Of a stretch of 30,462 nucleotides of DNA, positions 2,453 through 19,899 are shown in pieces. Every line of letters starts with the position of its first letter. The stretch's first letter is position 1. Location: positions 1-30,462 of the IMG/VR virus record IMGVR_UViG_3300042691_019200; one strand, written 5' to 3'. This stretch comes from a virus. Under the pieces are notes generated by a model. It did no database searches and was not told where the DNA came from. It worked only from the letters and a program-made list of their open reading frames with translations. The position numbers were made by a program, and so were the translations under genes.

Positions 2453-3728
2453 GTTTCAAGTGATCGGAGCGCACAAGAAGCTCTGGCAGACCAGAGCACC
2501 ACGCATCCTCATCGAGGGTCCAAGTGGCACTGGCAAGACTCGCAACGAGCTGGAGCGTATCAACTTCCTGTCATGGAGATATCCACGATCACGACATCTG
2601 ATTTGCCGGAAGACAAGAGCAAGCATGAGTGAGTCAGTGCTCGTCACTTGGGAGCGGGATGTGCACGCTCAAACATTCGATCTGTTCGGAAATATCCGGC
2701 GACAGAATCGTGAGGTGTATCGATATCCGAACGGCAGTTGCGTAGTAGTCGGTGGTCTCGACAAACCAGAGCGAACATACAGCTCAGAGTATGACACAAT
2801 CACAGTATTCGAAGCAGTAGAGACAACTGAGAATGAAGTTGAGCAGTTGCTTCGTGCATTGCGCTCCGGAAGGATGCCGTTTCAACAACTGGTAGCAGAC
2901 TGCAATCCTTCTCACGAACGACACTGGTTGAATGTGCGAGCAGACCAAGGATGGTTTGAACGGCATCTGACTCGACACACCGACAACCCAAGATACTGGA
3001 CTGGATCAGACTGGACTGAAGATGGCAAGAAGTTCATAAGCAGTCTGCAAGCTCTAACAGGTCACAGAAGGTTGCGACTGTTAGAGGGAAGATGGGCATC
3101 AGCTGAAGGTGTCGTGTATGATGAGTTTGACGCCAGTAGGCATGTGATCGACTCGATGCCGATAGGCTGGGAATCGTGGCGCAAGTTTCGATCAATTGAC
3201 TTTGGGTTCAACGATCCGTTCGTCTGTCAGTGGTGGGCTGACTCAGGTGAGGCATTGTACCTATATCGTGAGGTGTATATGTCCGGCAGGATCGTTCAAG
3301 ATCACGCTGAGCAGATAGTCCGGCTGACTGGTGATGAGGTGATTGACTACACCGTAGCAGATCACGATCGTGAGGATCGTGAAACCCTACACAGGTATGG
3401 AGTCCATACCATCCCTGCTCGCAAGGACATTGATCGTGGTATCGATTCAGTCAAAGCAAGGTTGCGAGTACAGGCGAATGGGAAGTCACGAATGTACATC
3501 CTGCGTTCATCTCTTCTGGAGCGTGATCAAAGGCTGGCTGTCAAGTCACGACCGACAAGCACAAGAGAAGAGTTTGACTGCTTCATCTGGTCGCAAAGGC
3601 GTGATGGTGATATTCGTGATCGGCCTGTCGATCGAGACAACCATGGTATGGATGCGATGCGATACGCAGTGATGAGTGTCGATAGCATTGGCGCAGGTGG
3701 CGACTATATTGGTGTGGTTGAGTGGTAG
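2439..3728 (+). CDS. terL: Terminase large subunit
   Basis: The 429-residue motor-nuclease that pumps DNA into the prohead. The Walker A motif is GPSGTGKT (27-34), and the Walker B region is YDTITVFEAVE, with the likely catalytic Glu125. The C-terminal RNase H-like nuclease has candidate metal-binding acids at Asp254 (SIDFGFNDP), Asp308 (VADHD) and Asp405 (NHGMDAMRYA). The start at ATG 2439 gives a sensible N-terminus; an upstream start at 2412 in the same frame adds nine residues that do not look conserved. The length is typical for a small siphovirus TerL. The hydrophobic strand before the Walker B glutamate is unusual in containing two threonines. Confidence 0.95.
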   Translation: MNTNKFQVIGAHKKLWQTRAPRILIEGPSGTGKTRNELERINFLSWRYPRSRHLICRKTRASMSESVLVTWERDVHAQTFDLFGNIRRQNREVYRYPNGSCVVVGGLDKPERTYSSEYDTITVFEAVETTENEVEQLLRALRSGRMPFQQLVADCNPSHERHWLNVRADQGWFERHLTRHTDNPRYWTGSDWTEDGKKFISSLQALTGHRRLRLLEGRWASAEGVVYDEFDASRHVIDSMPIGWESWRKFRSIDFGFNDPFVCQWWADSGEALYLYREVYMSGRIVQDHAEQIVRLTGDEVIDYTVADHDREDRETLHRYGVHTIPARKDIDRGIDSVKARLRVQANGKSRMYILRSSLLERDQRLAVKSRPTSTREEFDCFIWSQRRDGDIRDRPVDRDNHGMDAMRYAVMSVDSIGAGGDYIGVVEW

Positions 3729-3739
3729 TGGAGTACACA

Positions 3740-6700
3740 ATGGGTATCTTCGATGCATTCCTGAAAGCTCGCAAGCGTCCACCTACAGAGATGGATGCTG
3801 AATACACAGCTGCTTCGATTCGTGTAGGTGAAGAGTTTGCGGCATCATCGCAGAATGCGATCAACCAAGTTGACTTCAATCGTGTCGGTCGTGCGATGAC
3901 CGGAAGTATTTGGAATGCGTCAAGTATCATCGCAACTGAATGTGCGTCACATCCGTTGAAGCTGTATCGCAGAGCAAACTCCGGCAAGCGAGTTGGCAAG
4001 TGCGTGAAGATCGACAAACGGCAGTCTGATTTCCTTACTGGAAGAAGCTCATCGTGCAAGGTAACAGCCAAGCAAGCTTCTATGGCAGATGCTGCAGGAA
4101 CTATTGAAGAAGTCATAGAGCATCCTGCGCTCGATCTTCTTTCAGATCCTGATCCGGTCACGACTGCTTCGGACTTCCTGACGATGCTGTACTGGTATCG
4201 TGAAGTGGCAGGTAAGGCATATGTATGGACAGGAGAGCAAACCAAGGATGGTCCATCAGGACTCTACATCCTTCATCCGCAGTTCACGCAGCCAGTACTT
4301 AGTCGGCAGGACTTCATATCTGCGTATCGATATGGAAGGGATATCACAGGTGTCATCGAGATACCTGCAGAGCAGGTGATCTTCTCTCCATATCAGCGTG
4401 ACCCATTCAGACCATGGGATGGCATGTCGTGGCTGACTTCTGTCGAGCAATATGCCGATGCGGAGAACGCTGCACTGATTGCCGAAGTACAGAGATGGAA
4501 GAACAGTGGTCAGGCTGGATTCATCCTCAAGGTGCCGATGACCTACACCGACCAGCAGATGAAGCAAGTCGAAGCAGCTCTGCGAGCAAAGGCTGGCCCA
4601 CTTGCAGCTGGTCGTGCGCTGATCATTCGTGAGGCTGAGATCGTTCAGTCAGCGAGCAAAGCCCACGAGATGGGATATATCGAAGGTTTGACGCAGGCGG
4701 AGAAGGCAATATACAGAGCAGCCGGAATCCCAGAAGCAATTTGGAAGTTGAATGACGCAAACCTTGCTGGCGCAAAGATGGGTGAGCGATTGCTCATGCG
4801 ATCGTGCTTCAAGCGTATGAGAAGAGTCGCAGAAGATATGACAGCGTATCTTCTCCCGATGTTCGGTGAAGAAGATGGCACGATGTGGTTTGGCTATGAG
4901 AATCCGGATCTTGAAGATCAGGTTGCAGAAGCATCGATGATGAACGCAGCATTCATTGCTGGCGTAGTCTCTGAGGACGAATACCGCAAGGTGTTGTACT
5001 TACCACCACGCAATGGCTCTGACTCTGTAGATATCGATGAAGAAGAGATGACGGTTGCTCAGGCAGACGATGCTGAAGCTTCTGACGATAGTGAATCTGA
5101 GCTTGATGATGTCGAAGAATCAAATGACGAGATGACTGACGATACCGTCACTGAAGCTCCGGCTGAGACTAGCTCAGTTGATGCGAGCGCAACTGATACG
5201 GTACAGGCTGCGGCATCTGATATCAATGTTGCGTCTACTGCGTTGAACGGTGCGCAGGTACAAGCACTGTTAGAGTTGGCAACTGCCGTATCGTCCAATC
5301 AACTTCCATCTGAGTCTGCGAGAGCAATAGCAGCTGCCGCATTCCCAACGGTTGCACCTGAGGTACTCGATGCCGTATTTAAACCACTGTCAAGCTTCAC
5401 GCCAGCCTCAGCTCCGCAACAAAGTGATTCGTTCAAGAGCATTCGTGGACTTGTTCATAGATCCAAGGATGGTAACGATACTCCTGTTGCAGCAGTTGAA
5501 CAATCAAAGGCTGAAGAAGGATTCGTGCCACCTGAGCAAGTCCGGCGCAACGCAGAGCGTGCGCTTGAATGGCGCAGAGAATACAACAGAGGTATGACGC
5601 CAGTTGGAGTCGCACGAGCAAGAGACTTGATGAATGGTCGTGCGCTGTCGGCTGATACCATCTCACGCATGGTCAGCTATTTCGCTCGTCATGAAGTTGA
5701 TAAGCAGGCAGAAGGATTCAATGACGGTGAGGATGGATTCCCATCTGCCGGAAGAATCGCATGGGATGGTTGGGGTGGCGATGAAGGCAAGGCGTGGGCA
5801 GAACGGATCGCTGCACGATTCGACGATGAAGAGAAGATGTGTGACGATCAAGAGAAGATGTGTGGTAGTCCGGAGCATGAAGAAGGGAAGATGAAACCAC
5901 CATCTGAGCTCACAGAAGAAGAGTTGCGACAACTCGCAGAGTTTCTGAAACCATTGCTCATGCCAAAGTCCGTTCGTGTTGATCGATATGACTGGGATGG
6001 TCAATGCGGTTGTGCGCTCGATGGCATTCATGGCAAGGCAAAGCAAGAAGAGACAGATGACAAGATCGAAGAAGAGATCAGGCGTGCGATTGAGGAGTGG
6101 GCAAAGCGAACGATTCCTGAAGTCATCCGGCAACTCGACAAGACTGAAACAGTACAGTTCACAGACTTGAGTCGCACACAACTTCAGGAGGTTCTGGCAG
6201 TTGGAGTCGAAGCAGCATTCAAAGCAGGAGCGCAAGATACGCTGTCATCATTCAATAGCACTCTGCCTCCACTCAGCAGCGAGCAAGCATCGAAGTACAT
6301 ACAGCAGTACAACTTCAATTTGGTATCCGGCGTGACTCGCACAATGCGAGATCAGCTGCAGACGCAGATCAGTTCCGGTATCGAAGCAGGTGCGACTCGC
6401 AACGAGATTGCGGAGAAGCTTCTTGAGAATGTCGATGATATGAGTCGGAATAGAGCGACAGTCATTGCGCAAACTGAGACTGCTAGAGCGTACCAGCATG
6501 GTGCGTTGCAGCAGGGTATTGAGATGGGGATACCTGCGAAGAAGTGGCGATTGAGTGGCAACCCATGTGGTTTATGTGAAGCAGCGGCACGAAAGAGTCG
6601 CAGTGAACCAGTGCCGATCGGTGAACCCTTCTTGCGAGCAGGTGAAACGATCATGGGTACTGACGGCAAGTTGTACACGATGAAGATGGATGTGATGGTG

Positions 6701-6760
6701 GCGTCTGAAGCTCACCCAAACTGTGCGTGCGGAACAACAAAGGTGGATGAAGAAGTATGA
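3740..6760 (+). CDS. Portal protein fused to MuF-type head morphogenesis protein
   Basis: At about 1006 residues this is far longer than a usual portal (400-550). Residues 1-430 are an HK97-type portal (NASSIIATECASHPLKLYRR near the start; IYRAAGIPEAIW and NLAGAKMGERLL later). Residues about 430-490 are a very acidic linker. Residues about 500-550 are a helical segment (GAQVQALLEL...FPTVAPEVL). Residues about 597-690 hold a conserved phage-head-associated domain (NAERALEWRREYNRGM, FARHEVDK, FPSAGRIAWDGWGG). Residues about 780-1006 are a MuF/SPP1 gp7-like domain ending in C-G-L-C and HPNCACG. The chosen start is ATG 3740, behind a GTGGAG site. GTG codons at 3722 and 3728 are in frame but overlap the terminase stop. 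The protein should form the DNA-entry vertex and carry the MuF module into the head. Confidence 0.92.
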   Translation: MGIFDAFLKARKRPPTEMDAEYTAASIRVGEEFAASSQNAINQVDFNRVGRAMTGSIWNASSIIATECASHPLKLYRRANSGKRVGKCVKIDKRQSDFLTGRSSSCKVTAKQASMADAAGTIEEVIEHPALDLLSDPDPVTTASDFLTMLYWYREVAGKAYVWTGEQTKDGPSGLYILHPQFTQPVLSRQDFISAYRYGRDITGVIEIPAEQVIFSPYQRDPFRPWDGMSWLTSVEQYADAENAALIAEVQRWKNSGQAGFILKVPMTYTDQQMKQVEAALRAKAGPLAAGRALIIREAEIVQSASKAHEMGYIEGLTQAEKAIYRAAGIPEAIWKLNDANLAGAKMGERLLMRSCFKRMRRVAEDMTAYLLPMFGEEDGTMWFGYENPDLEDQVAEASMMNAAFIAGVVSEDEYRKVLYLPPRNGSDSVDIDEEEMTVAQADDAEASDDSESELDDVEESNDEMTDDTVTEAPAETSSVDASATDTVQAAASDINVASTALNGAQVQALLELATAVSSNQLPSESARAIAAAAFPTVAPEVLDAVFKPLSSFTPASAPQQSDSFKSIRGLVHRSKDGNDTPVAAVEQSKAEEGFVPPEQVRRNAERALEWRREYNRGMTPVGVARARDLMNGRALSADTISRMVSYFARHEVDKQAEGFNDGEDGFPSAGRIAWDGWGGDEGKAWAERIAARFDDEEKMCDDQEKMCGSPEHEEGKMKPPSELTEEELRQLAEFLKPLLMPKSVRVDRYDWDGQCGCALDGIHGKAKQEETDDKIEEEIRRAIEEWAKRTIPEVIRQLDKTETVQFTDLSRTQLQEVLAVGVEAAFKAGAQDTLSSFNSTLPPLSSEQASKYIQQYNFNLVSGVTRTMRDQLQTQISSGIEAGATRNEIAEKLLENVDDMSRNRATVIAQTETARAYQHGALQQGIEMGIPAKKWRLSGNPCGLCEAAARKSRSEPVPIGEPFLRAGETIMGTDGKLYTMKMDVMVASEAHPNCACGTTKVDEEV

Positions 6761-13054: not shown

Positions 13055-14752
13055 ATGGCCGAAGGTGGCACGATCGGTCGTGCGAACATTGAGCTTGGTG
13101 TCGATGCTTCAAAGCTCGACACTGGGATGTCTGCTGCAAAGGCGAAAGTCGAAGCAGATGTAGCAGAGATGGATGCAATCGCCAATGTCAGTCTGACTGC
13201 TGGTGGCGATGAGGATGCGTATGAAGGTGCGCTCGCAGCTCAGGAGGAGTTGAGGTATAGGGAAGCACTTGCTGGTTTAGCAGAGCGCACTCAAAGTGAA
13301 ACAACTACCTTCCTGCTGGAGGAGCAGAGGTATCAGGAAACACTACGCCGGATCAATGCCGATGTTATTGCCGCAGACGCTGAGAAGGCTCGATATGCAG
13401 AAGCATTGTTTGAGATGCGCAAGCGTCAGCTGCAGGTCGAGAATGAAACTGTTGGTGTAGCTAGACGGCAGGAAGCATCTGATGCGGCAGCTCAGGCTGC
13501 GCTCGATGAGGAGCTTGCGAAGAAGCAGGCAATTGCCGCAGCGGAGCAAGCGGCACTTGATGCAGAGATAGCTAAGAAGCAACAACTTGCAGCAGCTGAA
13601 GTTGAGGCTGATATTCGTCATCAGGAGGCATTGAAGTCGATTCATGCCACGACAAAGAATGTCGTTGATGAGATGCCGAATATGAAGCCACCACCTGTCA
13701 AGAAGCAGACTTGGCTTGAGTCTCTTCTAGATGACAGCAAGTCACTGAACAAGAGCATGGTCGCATTCGGCAAGCTGGCGATAGTCGCAACTGTTGCTGC
13801 GTCTATGTACAAGCTTGGTCAGGCGATCAGAGAGAATGTGATCAAGGCTCTGGAATCCGGAACTGATGCTGCCAACAAGTTTCGTGACAGTCTGAATACC
13901 ACTGATATCGGTCAGCGACTCTCATCGACTCAACAAGAAGTCGACAAGCTGAATGAGAAGATCGCAGCGCAGTCCGGTTCGTGGTTTGCGAGCGCACTTG
14001 GATTCATTCAAGGTGAAGGTACAGCAAAGCTTGAAGAGCAGCGCAACGAGCTCAATGCAGATGTCGGTCGAATGCAGCGTGATCGAGCTGCACAAGAGAA
14101 GGCAGCTAAGGATCGCAAGCGTACCAGCACATTCAATGAGATTGCCTACGACAGAGAAGAGCAGCGAATTGAGCAGTTGACAGATGAACGGATGAAGGCA
14201 AATGCGAGATTTGCTCTTGAGAATCGGAAGATTGATGACGAGATAGCAGCAGAGCAAGACACCAAGATGAAGGAGGTCTTGCGTCAGAAGAAGATCAATA
14301 TTGCTGAGCAGTATCAGTTTGAGATGGAAGAAGCTCGCAAGGCTGAAGAGAAGAAGCTGCAGGATGCTCAAGAGCAGCTTGACAAAGAAGAAGCAGATAG
14401 GAAAGAGAAGGCAAAGGACAATCGTGAGCTTGAATATCAGCTCATGGATGATCGACAGGAGCACGCTGCTCGATTCCTAGATGAGTACAACGATCTTGAG
14501 GAGCAATTCCGGAATGCTAAGGATGTTCGTGACAAGCAGTTGATTCGTGAGCAGATGCAGCTGCGAGCAAAGCTGTTCAACAAAGAAGTCGCTGAGCAGC
14601 AGAAGGAGCTCATGAAAGCGCAGCAGGAACAGTTCAAGAGTCTGCGCAATGACATCGCTGGACTCTTCAACAGTCAACAGCTTGAGGTAGGTATCAACAA
14701 GCTTGGATCGTTGCTTGGTGTATTGATTCAGAAGACAGGGGACAATCGATAA
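13055..14752 (+). CDS. Tail tape measure protein (short)
   Basis: 565 residues, mostly coiled coil. The N-terminus (ANIELGVDASKLDTGMSAAK) has the usual tape measure opening. A hydrophobic stretch at about 235-252 (MVAFGKLAIVATVAASMY) is the likely membrane or channel segment used in DNA entry. Long charged heptads run from about 275 to 545. Two tandem 18-residue repeats (copies starting near residue 148) read AALD-x-E-[LI]-AKKQ-x-[IL]-AAAE. At about 1.5 angstrom per residue the protein predicts a tail of about 85 nm. No lysozyme or peptidase domain is present. It starts at ATG 13055 and its stop overlaps the next gene. Confidence 0.85.
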   Translation: MAEGGTIGRANIELGVDASKLDTGMSAAKAKVEADVAEMDAIANVSLTAGGDEDAYEGALAAQEELRYREALAGLAERTQSETTTFLLEEQRYQETLRRINADVIAADAEKARYAEALFEMRKRQLQVENETVGVARRQEASDAAAQAALDEELAKKQAIAAAEQAALDAEIAKKQQLAAAEVEADIRHQEALKSIHATTKNVVDEMPNMKPPPVKKQTWLESLLDDSKSLNKSMVAFGKLAIVATVAASMYKLGQAIRENVIKALESGTDAANKFRDSLNTTDIGQRLSSTQQEVDKLNEKIAAQSGSWFASALGFIQGEGTAKLEEQRNELNADVGRMQRDRAAQEKAAKDRKRTSTFNEIAYDREEQRIEQLTDERMKANARFALENRKIDDEIAAEQDTKMKEVLRQKKINIAEQYQFEMEEARKAEEKKLQDAQEQLDKEEADRKEKAKDNRELEYQLMDDRQEHAARFLDEYNDLEEQFRNAKDVRDKQLIREQMQLRAKLFNKEVAEQQKELMKAQQEQFKSLRNDIAGLFNSQQLEVGINKLGSLLGVLIQKTGDNR

Positions 14753-15618
14753 TGGCAACCTGCACTGAGCTCATGGATGGTCGAAAGTACTCACGAGATA
14801 GCAATGGAGCTGTCGCATGTAGTCGCACCTTTGCGGTATTCGGAGCGCAGAATGAGGCTGGTGCTCGATCTGCACTTGAGTTGTTTCCGGGGTACGACAA
14901 GTTTCCAAATGACGATACGATCGGTCTGAAGCTCGATCGAATGGATATTGAAGCTCGTGGCGGTAACAGCCACTTTGTGATCACTGCGCAATATTCGTCA
15001 TTTCGTGGTAGTCGCAGGACGATCGAGATTGAACGATTCTTTGGTTGGGATCGAGCGAAGATTGAGGTTGATATACCGTTCTGTTGGTCTGAACAGATCA
15101 CGACCGGATCTGATAGCAATCAACTGTTCAAGGTAGTCTGGAAGGCAGATGTCAAGACTATCACTGAGAGAAGAATCAGGAGAGTACTCAACACAACCTT
15201 TACTACTTCGGATACTCGTGAGCTCGATGTGATTGCTACGCAAGAGAATTGCTTGCACAATATCAATGGAACCTACTACCACTTCATTGGCGCAGATGTG
15301 CAGCAGGACAGTACAGATGTGCAGAAGTTTCGATTGACTTACACATGGGAAATCGATCAGGGCAGTTGGATGCCTATCGATCGCACGACAAACTTTGCTG
15401 CACCTCTACAGCAGGCTGTCATGGATGGTCTTGTGTATATCCCTCTGTTTCCGGGTGCTGATGTAGACAACCAGCGTCAAATGGTTCGTCCTCCATATAC
15501 TGTGCTTGATCTTGTTCCGAGTTATGATGCTGGTATCCTGCCATGGGTAACAGTCATCAGTCCGCTCGTTGATCTTGGCGATGCGTGGCGTCAGCTACCG
15601 GGAATCGGCAACCTATGA
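14752..15618 (+). CDS. Tail tip / baseplate protein of unknown family
   Basis: 288 residues, coupled to the tape measure by a TAATG overlap. Beta-rich N-terminal half (FAVFGAQNEAG; GNSHFVITAQYSS) and a C-terminal half with several Trp and Pro residues (GSWMPIDR; GILPWVTVISP). Position after the tape measure is where distal tail and hub proteins lie. I do not recognise a distal-tail or tail-lysin motif, so only a tail-tip location is proposed. Confidence 0.6.
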   Translation: MATCTELMDGRKYSRDSNGAVACSRTFAVFGAQNEAGARSALELFPGYDKFPNDDTIGLKLDRMDIEARGGNSHFVITAQYSSFRGSRRTIEIERFFGWDRAKIEVDIPFCWSEQITTGSDSNQLFKVVWKADVKTITERRIRRVLNTTFTTSDTRELDVIATQENCLHNINGTYYHFIGADVQQDSTDVQKFRLTYTWEIDQGSWMPIDRTTNFAAPLQQAVMDGLVYIPLFPGADVDNQRQMVRPPYTVLDLVPSYDAGILPWVTVISPLVDLGDAWRQLPGIGNL

Positions 15619-16058
15619 AGAAGAGTGAAGCAAAGATCGATCCGTCACCTATTGCTGTCGTTGGGAAGATTGCCGGAATCAACGGCACTCCGAATGACGC
15701 TGGTTTCTATACCTCTGCTGGTACCTCATACAACATTCAATGCAGTATTCCGAAGCAGGGTGTCACTCTCTTTGAACGACAGGTGCCTCAGTTCAGACTA
15801 TGGACAGATGACACAGAGATCAATGCCGCAAGACTTCTTGGCGTCTGTGTATTCGGAGTGAAGATTGGTCGTGAGGTGCGATGGTTCTTCAGTGAGCCTG
15901 TAGCTACGACAGATTGCCAAACACAAGTGACGCAGGATGGTGGCGCATTGTTTATTCAAGGCAGCTCTAGCACTCCGGCTGGAGTACCTTCAACACCGTC
16001 AACACCAACAGATCCGAATGTTACACCAACGCCAACTCCTGATATCGGGATCAACTAA
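15615..16058 (+). CDS. Small tail protein with Pro/Thr-rich tail
   Basis: 147 residues from ATG 15615, which overlaps the previous stop by 4 bases; an in-frame start 30 bases upstream would overlap more. A folded N-terminal part of about 115 residues is followed by a low-complexity Ser/Pro/Thr tail (STPAGVPSTPSTPTDP, then TPTPTPD) that looks like a flexible linker or attachment arm. Probably a tail-tip or fibre-anchor component. Function unknown. Confidence 0.6.
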   Translation: MKKSEAKIDPSPIAVVGKIAGINGTPNDAGFYTSAGTSYNIQCSIPKQGVTLFERQVPQFRLWTDDTEINAARLLGVCVFGVKIGREVRWFFSEPVATTDCQTQVTQDGGALFIQGSSSTPAGVPSTPSTPTDPNVTPTPTPDIGIN

Positions 16059-16417
16059 TGGACCAGATATTCACTCACTGTGATCTGAACAGACTTGGCT
16101 GGATGCGTGATGACGCAGAGCGGCTGGTTGTGATCGATATGGGTGACAACGATGTTGTCAACTTCACGATCGAGCTCGTCACCGGAGCGTGGTCAGGAAC
16201 AGTGATTCATGTTCACTATTCAAACTCACCGACAGGGCCATGGGTTGACTATACCACGAACATTCGGTTGACTACTGCAGATCGCACAAGTGGACTCGTG
16301 GCGCATGTCGGTCGATATGTACGCTGTGAGGTGACTACGGCATCAGGTGCTGAAGCACGAGCTGATATATACATCCACGCTCGCAAGTCGCAGATCGATA
16401 CGCAGGTGCTTGTATGA
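16058..16417 (+). CDS. Small tail protein, immunoglobulin-like
   Basis: 119 residues, joined to the previous gene by a TAATG overlap. The alternating strand pattern (VVNFTIELVTGAWSGTVIHV; YSNSPTGPWVDYT; GRYVRCEVTTASG) resembles a beta sandwich of immunoglobulin or fibronectin type, common in phage tail-tip accessories that touch the cell surface. The evidence is from pattern and location only. Confidence 0.55.
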   Translation: MDQIFTHCDLNRLGWMRDDAERLVVIDMGDNDVVNFTIELVTGAWSGTVIHVHYSNSPTGPWVDYTTNIRLTTADRTSGLVAHVGRYVRCEVTTASGAEARADIYIHARKSQIDTQVLV

Positions 16418-17115
16418 GTTTCACTCGATCAGTCCCTGATACTTCGACACCTGGTGCTACTAAGAACACAGGTGTTGTTATCTTTGAGGATTATCTCTCA
16501 ACATCGATCGGTTGGGGAGTGGGATCACATAGTGGTGGTAGCATCTTGCAGTCTGGTGCATCTGTATCTAATAAGGCAGTTGGCGTCATTGCGCTCTACA
16601 CAGGAACTGGCGCAACTGGTCGTGCCGGACTCACATCTCATGTTGACGGCATTTGGTTTGGCGTCAATCGTTGGAGATTTGAAACTCGTGTAGGTGTAGA
16701 AGCACTATCAACATCTGTTCAAGACTTCACGATCAGATTCGGTTTCATGGATAGTGTCGCAGCCGATCCGACAGATGGTCACTTCTTTCGATATACGCAT
16801 GGAACAAATAGTGGAAACTGGCAATGCGTCACTCGCAATAATGGTGTCGAGACAGCGAGCAATACTCAGTTTGCTCCATCTGCTCTGTCGTCAGGTGAAC
16901 CCTATTCTGTGTTCAGTATCGATGTGAATGAGCTTGGCAACCGGATATCGTTCAGCATTGATAATCGGATCGTGGCGTCACATATCTCTGGGCCAACAGG
17001 ATCGTCACGAGCTACCGGCGTGGCATATTCCATAATCAAGAAGGCAGGGACAACACCACGATCGTTGTATCTTGATTGGACTTACATAGTCTGTAGGCTT
17101 GGAATCGATCGATGA
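16414..17115 (+). CDS. Putative receptor-binding protein with lectin-like fold
   Basis: 233 residues, overlapping the previous gene by 4 bases. The pattern WRFETRVGVEALST...FTIRFGFMD...GHFFRYTHG...WQCVTRNNGVET...SIDVNELGNRISFSIDNRIVA is typical of a jelly-roll (concanavalin-like) domain often found in phage fibres and receptor-binding proteins. It spans about residues 20-230, so the protein is essentially one domain. It probably recognises a surface glycan. The family assignment is from memory of the pattern. Confidence 0.6.
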   Translation: MSFTRSVPDTSTPGATKNTGVVIFEDYLSTSIGWGVGSHSGGSILQSGASVSNKAVGVIALYTGTGATGRAGLTSHVDGIWFGVNRWRFETRVGVEALSTSVQDFTIRFGFMDSVAADPTDGHFFRYTHGTNSGNWQCVTRNNGVETASNTQFAPSALSSGEPYSVFSIDVNELGNRISFSIDNRIVASHISGPTGSSRATGVAYSIIKKAGTTPRSLYLDWTYIVCRLGIDR

Positions 17116-17365: not shown

Positions 17366-18226
17366 ATGCCATCGATTGAATACTTGAATGACGGTGCGAC
17401 ATCGTTCAGTGGTACTTGGAAGTTGATCGACGGTACTGCTGGCACAGGATTCCAGAACGATGCTGAGTTGATCATACCTGGTGGTGGCAACTCGATCAGT
17501 GCAGGACTCGATCAATCAGCTAGCACTACAACCGGAATCCGGTACTTGGTACTTGCTGAAAGCTTCAGCGGCAATGTCGGTGACGGCACTTCTCCTCTGA
17601 TCACAGAAGCAACTGACGGATCTGCTGCTGAGTGGCGTTCAGATAATACTGAGGGAAGAATCGAGCACAACGGTACTGGTACGCTCTATGTCAAGGGTGA
17701 TACTAATGGCATCAGCAACCTGATGCAGAATGGCAATGGCCGAACGGTATTGACAGACGGTACAGCGTCATATGTGCGAGTCTTGCGTGGACTCTTCAGC
17801 TGCGCCGGAGCTGCGACGATCACAAACCTATCTGTGCTTGGTGGCACAACGACGATCGTTGCGAAGTCACCGACCAACTCTGCCGGAACAAATCTGTATG
17901 TGTTCGGCGGATCAGTGACGGTATCCAGACCATTCACAAACATCTATGTGTATGGTGGCAACCTCACAATCAATACCTACAACGCTGGTGGAGCCAGTAC
18001 CGTCTATCAGTACGGTGGCACAGTGAGTCTCGTTGCCCATGGCAACAACGCCATCACTGCCTACTACCACGAAGCAGGTACGCTCGATGCGACACGACTG
18101 CGAGTTGCGTCCACGATCACGACTTATGTGCGCTCCTTCGGATCGATCTTCACAGGCAGACCGAATGGTGCGCAGTTGACGATCACCAACAACTATCGCA
18201 AAGATCCAAATATTGGTCCGGTCTGA
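17366..18226 (+). CDS. Beta-solenoid virion protein, likely tail fibre or tip
   Basis: 286 residues with repeated short strands rich in Gly, Thr and Asn (TITNLSVLGGTTTIVAKS; TNLYVFGGSVTVSRP; TNIYVYGGNLTINTY; STVYQYGGTVSLVA). This is a ladder of about 18-20 residues per rung with a recurring aromatic-x-GG turn, as in a right-handed beta helix. Such folds are used in tail spikes and stable fibre tips. No catalytic residues are apparent. It starts at ATG 17366 after a 50-base gap with a weak GTGAG site. It could carry the host-binding surface together with the gene at 16414. Confidence 0.6.
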   Translation: MPSIEYLNDGATSFSGTWKLIDGTAGTGFQNDAELIIPGGGNSISAGLDQSASTTTGIRYLVLAESFSGNVGDGTSPLITEATDGSAAEWRSDNTEGRIEHNGTGTLYVKGDTNGISNLMQNGNGRTVLTDGTASYVRVLRGLFSCAGAATITNLSVLGGTTTIVAKSPTNSAGTNLYVFGGSVTVSRPFTNIYVYGGNLTINTYNAGGASTVYQYGGTVSLVAHGNNAITAYYHEAGTLDATRLRVASTITTYVRSFGSIFTGRPNGAQLTITNNYRKDPNIGPV

Positions 18227-18256
18227 TCCGATTCTCCGAGTGCGAAGAAGGTGCGC

Positions 18257-19489
18257 ATGAGGTTGTTGATCCGCAATGGTCGTGCCGTCGGCATCGGCAA
18301 GAAACTTCTGATCACGAACGATCGTCATTGCTGTTGCAATGATCGACCTGAGTTGGCGTATCTCTTCTGCGAATGCTGTGATGGTGATCCCTGCTTCTGG
18401 ATTGCTCAGAGAGCATTTCCGAACGGACAGATGTGCGAGCTCCTGAAGGATACAGGATCAGTAGATACTGACGGCAGACCGACATGCTATGGATTGCGAG
18501 ATATCGATAGGCTTGAGGCAGTACTCTCGCAAGATAATGCCGTCAGGCTCACTCGTGGCAATCTGCAGTGCGCAGATATCATAATGCCTTGCAACGAGAC
18601 TCTTGAGTGTCGCACCTGCCCAACTAGTTGCTGTATCTTCGGATATGTACCACGCTGCGGCCAATCCGGATCTGACTGTTGCAATCTTGGTAGTGCGTAT
18701 GAGATGGTGTACACCTACAACTACTATTTCCTTGATCAGGGAAGTTATGGATGCGAGGTGAGCACAGTGTCCGATCCGTCAGGAGGATACTCTCTGTGCT
18801 GTCAGGCATACTCCGGACTGATTCGTGAGGTGAAAGAATCTAAGACATACAGAGTCAAGCACTACAAGACTGGTGGTGCTTGTGGATTCCGAAGATCAAC
18901 CGGAAGCAATCAGTTCAGCTACCAAGAACGCAATCTGCGTCACGATGGATTCATTCGTGAGCCTATTCCGAATAGTGACCTGACTTGCATTTCAGGACTG
19001 GTCAATGGTCGCATTGAAGAGATCAACACCAGCAGTGCTGATTCTCTCATATATATCGGTCGTGGTCAGTATCCTTGGGGAACAGTCGACAACTGCAACT
19101 TTCAACGCTCTACTGGTCAGGCTATCGGATGCGCTTGGCAAACTGACGATCGAATCCTGCAGGCTGGAATGTCCTGCCTAAGTGGATTCCGGAATAGCAC
19201 ACGAATCACGAGGACAATGGCTGGCTGTTGTGATCGTGGGCCAGCGTGCTTCCGGATGCAGACGACGATCATTCAGGAATCGTACTTCGTGAACATTCTC
19301 GATCGTACAGGTTGCGAGACTACAGACTGCGGCAGCATCAGCCCACTTCTTAGACCACCTGCGCCATATGCTAGTGGCCGATTCAATATCAACCGCACTA
19401 GGGATGATCTATCTGTTACGATCAGTCCGCTGATTCAAGAGCAGTCAAAGCGTGGCTGTATGTCATGCCGATCTGCACGAGGTATCTGA
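18257..19489 (+). CDS. Extremely cysteine-rich tail-region protein
   Basis: 410 residues from ATG 18257, with GAAGAAGG just upstream (GTG 18251 also possible). I count 33 cysteines, about 8 percent, including clusters HCCC (N-terminus), FCECCDGDPC, CRTCPTSCC, DCC, CC, GCCDRGPAC and CMSC. Cysteines are spread along the chain, often in pairs, as in disulfide-stabilised or metal-binding extracellular proteins. There is no signal peptide. The late-gene position next to fibre genes suggests a virion surface protein that oxidises after lysis. No known fold is recognised. Its stop overlaps the next gene (TGATG). Confidence 0.75.
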   Translation: MRLLIRNGRAVGIGKKLLITNDRHCCCNDRPELAYLFCECCDGDPCFWIAQRAFPNGQMCELLKDTGSVDTDGRPTCYGLRDIDRLEAVLSQDNAVRLTRGNLQCADIIMPCNETLECRTCPTSCCIFGYVPRCGQSGSDCCNLGSAYEMVYTYNYYFLDQGSYGCEVSTVSDPSGGYSLCCQAYSGLIREVKESKTYRVKHYKTGGACGFRRSTGSNQFSYQERNLRHDGFIREPIPNSDLTCISGLVNGRIEEINTSSADSLIYIGRGQYPWGTVDNCNFQRSTGQAIGCAWQTDDRILQAGMSCLSGFRNSTRITRTMAGCCDRGPACFRMQTTIIQESYFVNILDRTGCETTDCGSISPLLRPPAPYASGRFNINRTRDDLSVTISPLIQEQSKRGCMSCRSARGI

Positions 19490-19899
19490 TGCTCACATTT
19501 GTAAAGATGCTCGACATTGGGCTTGATCGTCTGATCGATCTTGCGTTGCGAGACCAGCTGACTCCTGTGACGATATGGACTGCTGTGCGTGGTGGTTGGC
19601 GATATGTCGGAGCACTTGCTACTGGTGATGAAGCTCCGGCTGATATCGTCACAGAGCGTATGAAGATTTGCCTGCGCTGTCCCGCTCGTGATGAATCGGA
19701 CACCTACAAGCCTACTGTCGGCGCAGTCTACTGCGGGACAGGTCAGCCTATCGACTCTCAGCCGACTTGCGGATGCCTTGTTGCAATACGCATCAACGGG
19801 ACACCGTACCCAGCTGGGAAGAGTCTTGTTGCCTCTGAATCCTGTCCTAGACAGGCGTGGCTATCGGTTGGCCATAGAGCGCAGCCGGAGCGTGTATAG
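19489..19899 (+). CDS. Zinc-ribbon-like small protein ending the late operon
   Basis: 136 residues from ATG 19489, sharing a TGATG with the Cys-rich gene. An N-terminal helical half is followed by a cysteine-rich half with C-x-x-C (CLRC), YCGTG, TCGCL and a final ESCPRQAW. This layout resembles small zinc-binding phage proteins whose last cysteine sits in a CP-x-x-x-W motif. Role unknown; the coupling suggests it works with, or helps fold, the Cys-rich protein. Its stop codon lies in the first stem of the structured gap that follows. Confidence 0.6.
   Translation: MLTFVKMLDIGLDRLIDLALRDQLTPVTIWTAVRGGWRYVGALATGDEAPADIVTERMKICLRCPARDESDTYKPTVGAVYCGTGQPIDSQPTCGCLVAIRINGTPYPAGKSLVASESCPRQAWLSVGHRAQPERV

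Follow-up and report, generated by a model that had tools for sequence, protein, structure and literature searches.

A cysteine-rich protein encoded by an exchanged late gene of a siphovirus-type phage and conserved mainly in its cysteines

The plus-strand ORF at positions 18257..19489 of the virus record IMGVR_UViG_3300042691_019200 encodes a protein of 410 aa with 33 Cys, which represents a new family of an already known kind, that of swapped adhesins and of virions hardened by disulfides, such as those of phage Milano. The record, analysed here over its whole length of 30,462 bases, is referred to as the window. We propose, with a probability of about 0.55, that the product is a disulfide-scaffolded virion protein, exposed at the surface and in contact with the host, most likely a tail receptor-binding or adhesion protein, and that its gene is a swapped cassette. 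This interaction with the host is suggested by the fixed frame of cysteines, the changing surface, the place beside the fibre genes and the exchange of the cassette.

Genome organization

The window belongs to a siphovirus-type phage. The plus strand carries the terminase, a portal and head-morphogenesis fusion, the head protease, the major capsid protein, the head-tail adaptor, the major tail protein and then the tail genes; the minus strand carries RusA, PDDEXK nuclease, replication initiator, RecT-like and exonuclease VIII-like genes. The portal is fused to a head-morphogenesis (MuF-like) domain at 3722-6760, and the middle segment of this fusion presents 44-57% identity to Roseobacter phage proteins. 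When the ORFs of the window were scanned against Pfam and PHROGs, neither an endolysin nor a holin was recognised; the 30,462-base record may be incomplete. None of the scanned ORFs was recognised as encoding a disulfide-forming enzyme, which speaks against the proposed reading. The search for relatives in bacterial genomes found none, so host assignment failed.

In the late block, a gene at 16414..17115 (plus strand) encodes a protein with an SO2946-like_C domain (Pfam scan, E 3.3e-9), and a fibre-like gene at 17366..18226 (plus strand), whose position is conserved in the family loci, lies directly upstream of the cysteine-rich gene. The latter and the zinc-ribbon-like gene that follows it close the plus-strand late block, after which the opposite-strand early genes begin. 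The initial annotation had described a late gene beside fibre genes, and this placement holds both here and in the relatives. A Shine-Dalgarno-like sequence, GAAGAAGG (18244..18251, plus strand), ends five bases 5' of the ATG at 18257. The stop codon TGA occupies 19487-19489 and the next gene starts within it, with ATG at 19489 (TGATG), an overlap that had been correctly noted.

The cysteine-rich family

Cysteine-rich proteins are rare in phages, whose proteins fold in the reducing cytoplasm. Cysteine makes up 8.0% of this protein, against a mean of 1.05% in the upstream ORFs; with that background, at least 33 Cys in 410 aa have a binomial probability of about 6e-19. The translation agrees with the count that was first reported, and the motifs HCCC, CECC, CRTCPTSCC and GCCDRGPAC are all present exactly as written then. 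A signal peptide is absent, as judged by eye.

The protein has no profile match in Pfam, PHROGs or NCBIfam, and direct searches with it retrieved nothing from viral contigs, genome contigs, isolated phages, plasmids or the PDB; no homologue of known function was found. Its AlphaFold model is beta-rich and of low confidence (pLDDT 50.7); it is too weak to interpret, so that its fold matches, none of them significant, are given no weight. Relatives were reached only with the terminase and the zinc-ribbon gene as queries. The terminase search revealed 14 related phages at 68-71% identity, several of them with a cysteine-rich gene in the same slot, and the scan with the zinc-ribbon gene gave nine loci, all nine with a cysteine-rich gene directly upstream. 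Nine distinct full-length members from related IMG/VR phages could be aligned, with mutual identities of 20-42%, and all sit in the slot that follows the fibre-like gene and precedes a zinc-ribbon-like gene with six cysteines. A DNA-pattern scan of viral contigs added one partial homologue, L062. In one record (G012, IMGVR_UViG_3300005805_000355) the late genes span the record ends, and the contig looks circularly permuted.

With the window as reference, the nine-member alignment presents 16 invariant cysteines out of 33, against 11 invariant positions among the 377 other residues (Fisher P 4e-13). The initial annotation had named weak conservation of the cysteines in homologues as an outcome that would speak against its proposal; the opposite was found. 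Since the nine homologues keep the frame together with the 16 cysteines, the reading frame is real. The invariant positions are C25, 26, 27, 40, 41, 77, 105, 118, 121, 125, 126, 134, 209, 353, 401 and 404; eight of the nine members also share C142 and C307. The other 17 cysteines of the window protein vary, among them C324, C325 and C331 of the motif GCCDRGPAC.

Four regions can be distinguished along the plus strand. The N-terminal lead to CCC (residues 1-27, 18257..18337) is also matched in the divergent protein of G018; the cysteine-dense region (residues 25-145, 18329..18691) holds 12 of the 16 invariant cysteines; a variable region, predicted as beta-rich by the low-confidence model, covers residues 146-352 (18692..19312); and the conserved C-terminal tail (residues 399-410, 19451..19486) contains CxxC and a terminal G-L/I. 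Excluding cysteine, the mean pairwise identity of the body is only 18-24%, lower than that of the first 24 residues (32%) and of the final 12 (38%).

More divergent proteins, built from GACC...GDGT.C repeats of about 40 residues in tandem, occupy the same slot in L044 (3821-5344) and L045 (5682-7310), with 39 and 45 Cys, respectively, and have no Pfam or NCBIfam match. The repeat proteins in this slot of G015 and G018 resemble the family in the zinc-ribbon-like gene that comes next and, in the more distant G018, in 30 N-terminal residues up to CCC that are matched by the family profile (E 1.2e-4); they differ in having a body of tandem cysteine repeats of about 40 residues, without a Pfam match. 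GACC repeats are probably common in Planctomycetota.

Disulfide bonds or metal binding

The nine members contain 33, 25, 29, 27, 23, 23, 21, 25 and 27 cysteines, all odd totals, as are those of the two divergent neighbours (39 and 45). The number of cysteine columns that differ between any two aligned members is always even. When gain and loss were simulated as independent events on a tree built from the non-cysteine columns, nine totals of the same parity occurred with P of about 0.004; this argument is post hoc and rests on 9-11 sequences. Several optional cysteines co-occur, namely C38/C46, C244/C325, C141/C358 and C142/C307. In addition, C60 occurs in six members, all of which have one extra cysteine, either C112 or an inserted one, that is missing from the three members without C60. 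This pattern of gain and loss points to disulfide bonds, as support and not as proof, because the parity test was unplanned and shared ancestry can produce matching cysteine patterns without bonding. An odd total would leave one cysteine unpaired, which could bridge to another chain.

The initial annotation had offered a disulfide-rich or a metal-binding protein. The odd totals and the paired changes favour the first of these. For the second, zinc or another metal would be bound by the cysteines both in the cytoplasm and within the particle, and would be supplied by the zinc-ribbon-like neighbour. The CCC, CxxC and CC clusters suit this idea, as does a neighbour with six invariant cysteines of its own. 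The nine-member alignment has no invariant histidine, however, and single cysteines that are gained and lost in pairs at distant positions of the chain are better explained by disulfides than by four-ligand sites, so that metal binding is quite unlikely.

Exchange of the cysteine-rich gene

Near-identical phages were compared in pairs at the family loci. For G007 and G031, identity is 95% both for the fibre-like protein upstream and for the zinc-ribbon protein downstream, whereas the cysteine-rich protein is only 38% identical, the lowest value in the compared tail block; between L053 and G001 the corresponding values are 93%, 95% and 23%. At the borders of the ORF, the DNA identity of about 90% drops to background level: BLASTN homology stops at most about 60 bases past the start codon and resumes 10-30 bases before the stop codon. 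An assembly artefact or chimera was ruled out as the origin of this replacement, since the G007 arrangement was found in a second metagenome at 99.2%. These comparisons indicate that the gene is an exchanged, fast-diverging cassette, swapped as a unit between related phages. A second variable patch corresponds to window positions 15585-16058 and the C-terminal part of 14752-15618; between G007 and G031 the homologues of 15585-16058 are 55% identical, with neighbours at about 83-90%. This patch is possibly another part in contact with the host.

The gene is a late gene in a tail-fibre cluster that has diversified and been exchanged markedly more than its neighbours, as in the class of receptor-binding proteins, and the conservation of its cysteines in homologues would be expected of a virion disulfide protein of the Milano type. 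A purely hardening function, in which the protein would be a disulfide or cement component of the tail-tip structure with no role in host binding, would account for the invariant cysteines and the odd totals and has a precedent in phage Milano (PMC10491603). One would not expect the gene for such a part to have diverged and been exchanged more than any other in the tail block, so this alternative is unlikely, and these two properties point to host binding beyond hardening.

Fast divergence is also compatible with a role in superinfection exclusion or as a decoy. A late non-virion protein that acts in superinfection exclusion or at the cell surface, its gene closing the late block and being swapped in the manner of a moron, would agree with the replacement at the ORF borders and with the position of the last genes ahead of the opposite-strand early genes. 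Such a protein is made improbable by the position next to the fibre gene, which is the same in every locus, by the constant downstream partner and by the lack of a visible signal peptide.

The zinc-ribbon-like partner

The gene at 19489..19899 (plus strand; other in-frame starts are ATG 19465 and ATG 19507) encodes a zinc-ribbon-like protein of 136 aa with six invariant cysteines (C61, 64, 82, 94, 96 and 119). This neighbour, already noticed in the initial annotation, is conserved in the family loci and keeps nearly the same sequence beside very different cysteine-rich proteins. It behaves like an assembly partner, and is probably a dedicated assembly or thiol-protecting partner of the cysteine-rich protein.

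No Pfam match was found for the zinc-ribbon protein of the window, DUF6171 (PF19668) included, nor does it match the family of any known fibre chaperone. DUF6171 comprises small zinc-ribbon-type proteins, and the likeness to it consists of a weak match in the C-terminal stretch of the divergent G015 partner (best 13.7 bits, E 0.084), which does not reach the Pfam cut-off of 27 bits.

Proposed mechanism and significance

In the proposed host-contact protein, disulfide bonds between the fixed cysteines would hold the scaffold and leave the rest of the surface free to change, and related phages would exchange the whole gene as a cassette. We infer that the protein, lacking a signal sequence, is made in the cytoplasm, presumably in reduced form, with the co-encoded zinc-ribbon protein as its probable assembly or thiol-protecting partner, and that oxidation would take place at or after lysis. 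A wider two-gene system can be suggested tentatively, though it is doubtful: the conserved zinc-ribbon protein would keep the thiols of many interchangeable cysteine-rich clients unoxidised, perhaps metal-loaded, until lysis, when the hypervariable binders would lock into their disulfide form.

Disulfide networks have been proven in the virion of Agrobacterium phage Milano, including at its receptor-binding proteins (PMC10811340, PMC10491603). The likeness lies in phage structural proteins with extensive disulfides, links at receptor-binding proteins included, seen there in the virion and putative here. However, the Milano structural proteins contain about 2.1-2.4% Cys, whereas here a single protein contains 5-8%, and a conserved cysteine scaffold with a hypervariable remainder belongs to the present family. 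Modules of a tail fibre and its adjacent chaperone move between phages, for example in Alteromonas phages A5 and V22 (PMC10579305). They share with the present loci an exchanged host-recognition gene, putative here as to binding, adjoining a small downstream partner gene; they differ in that, in the present loci, the cysteine-rich gene is replaced next to a partner that remains 95% identical. On the present evidence, neither these modules nor the Milano proteins are related in sequence to the family.

If this reading is true, a family that fixes only its cysteines, with everything else rewritten and exchanged, would offer a natural stable scaffold on which binding surfaces can vary. It would also raise the question of how the mispairing of 20-45 thiols is prevented in a phage until lysis, for which the constant zinc-ribbon neighbour would be a direct candidate.
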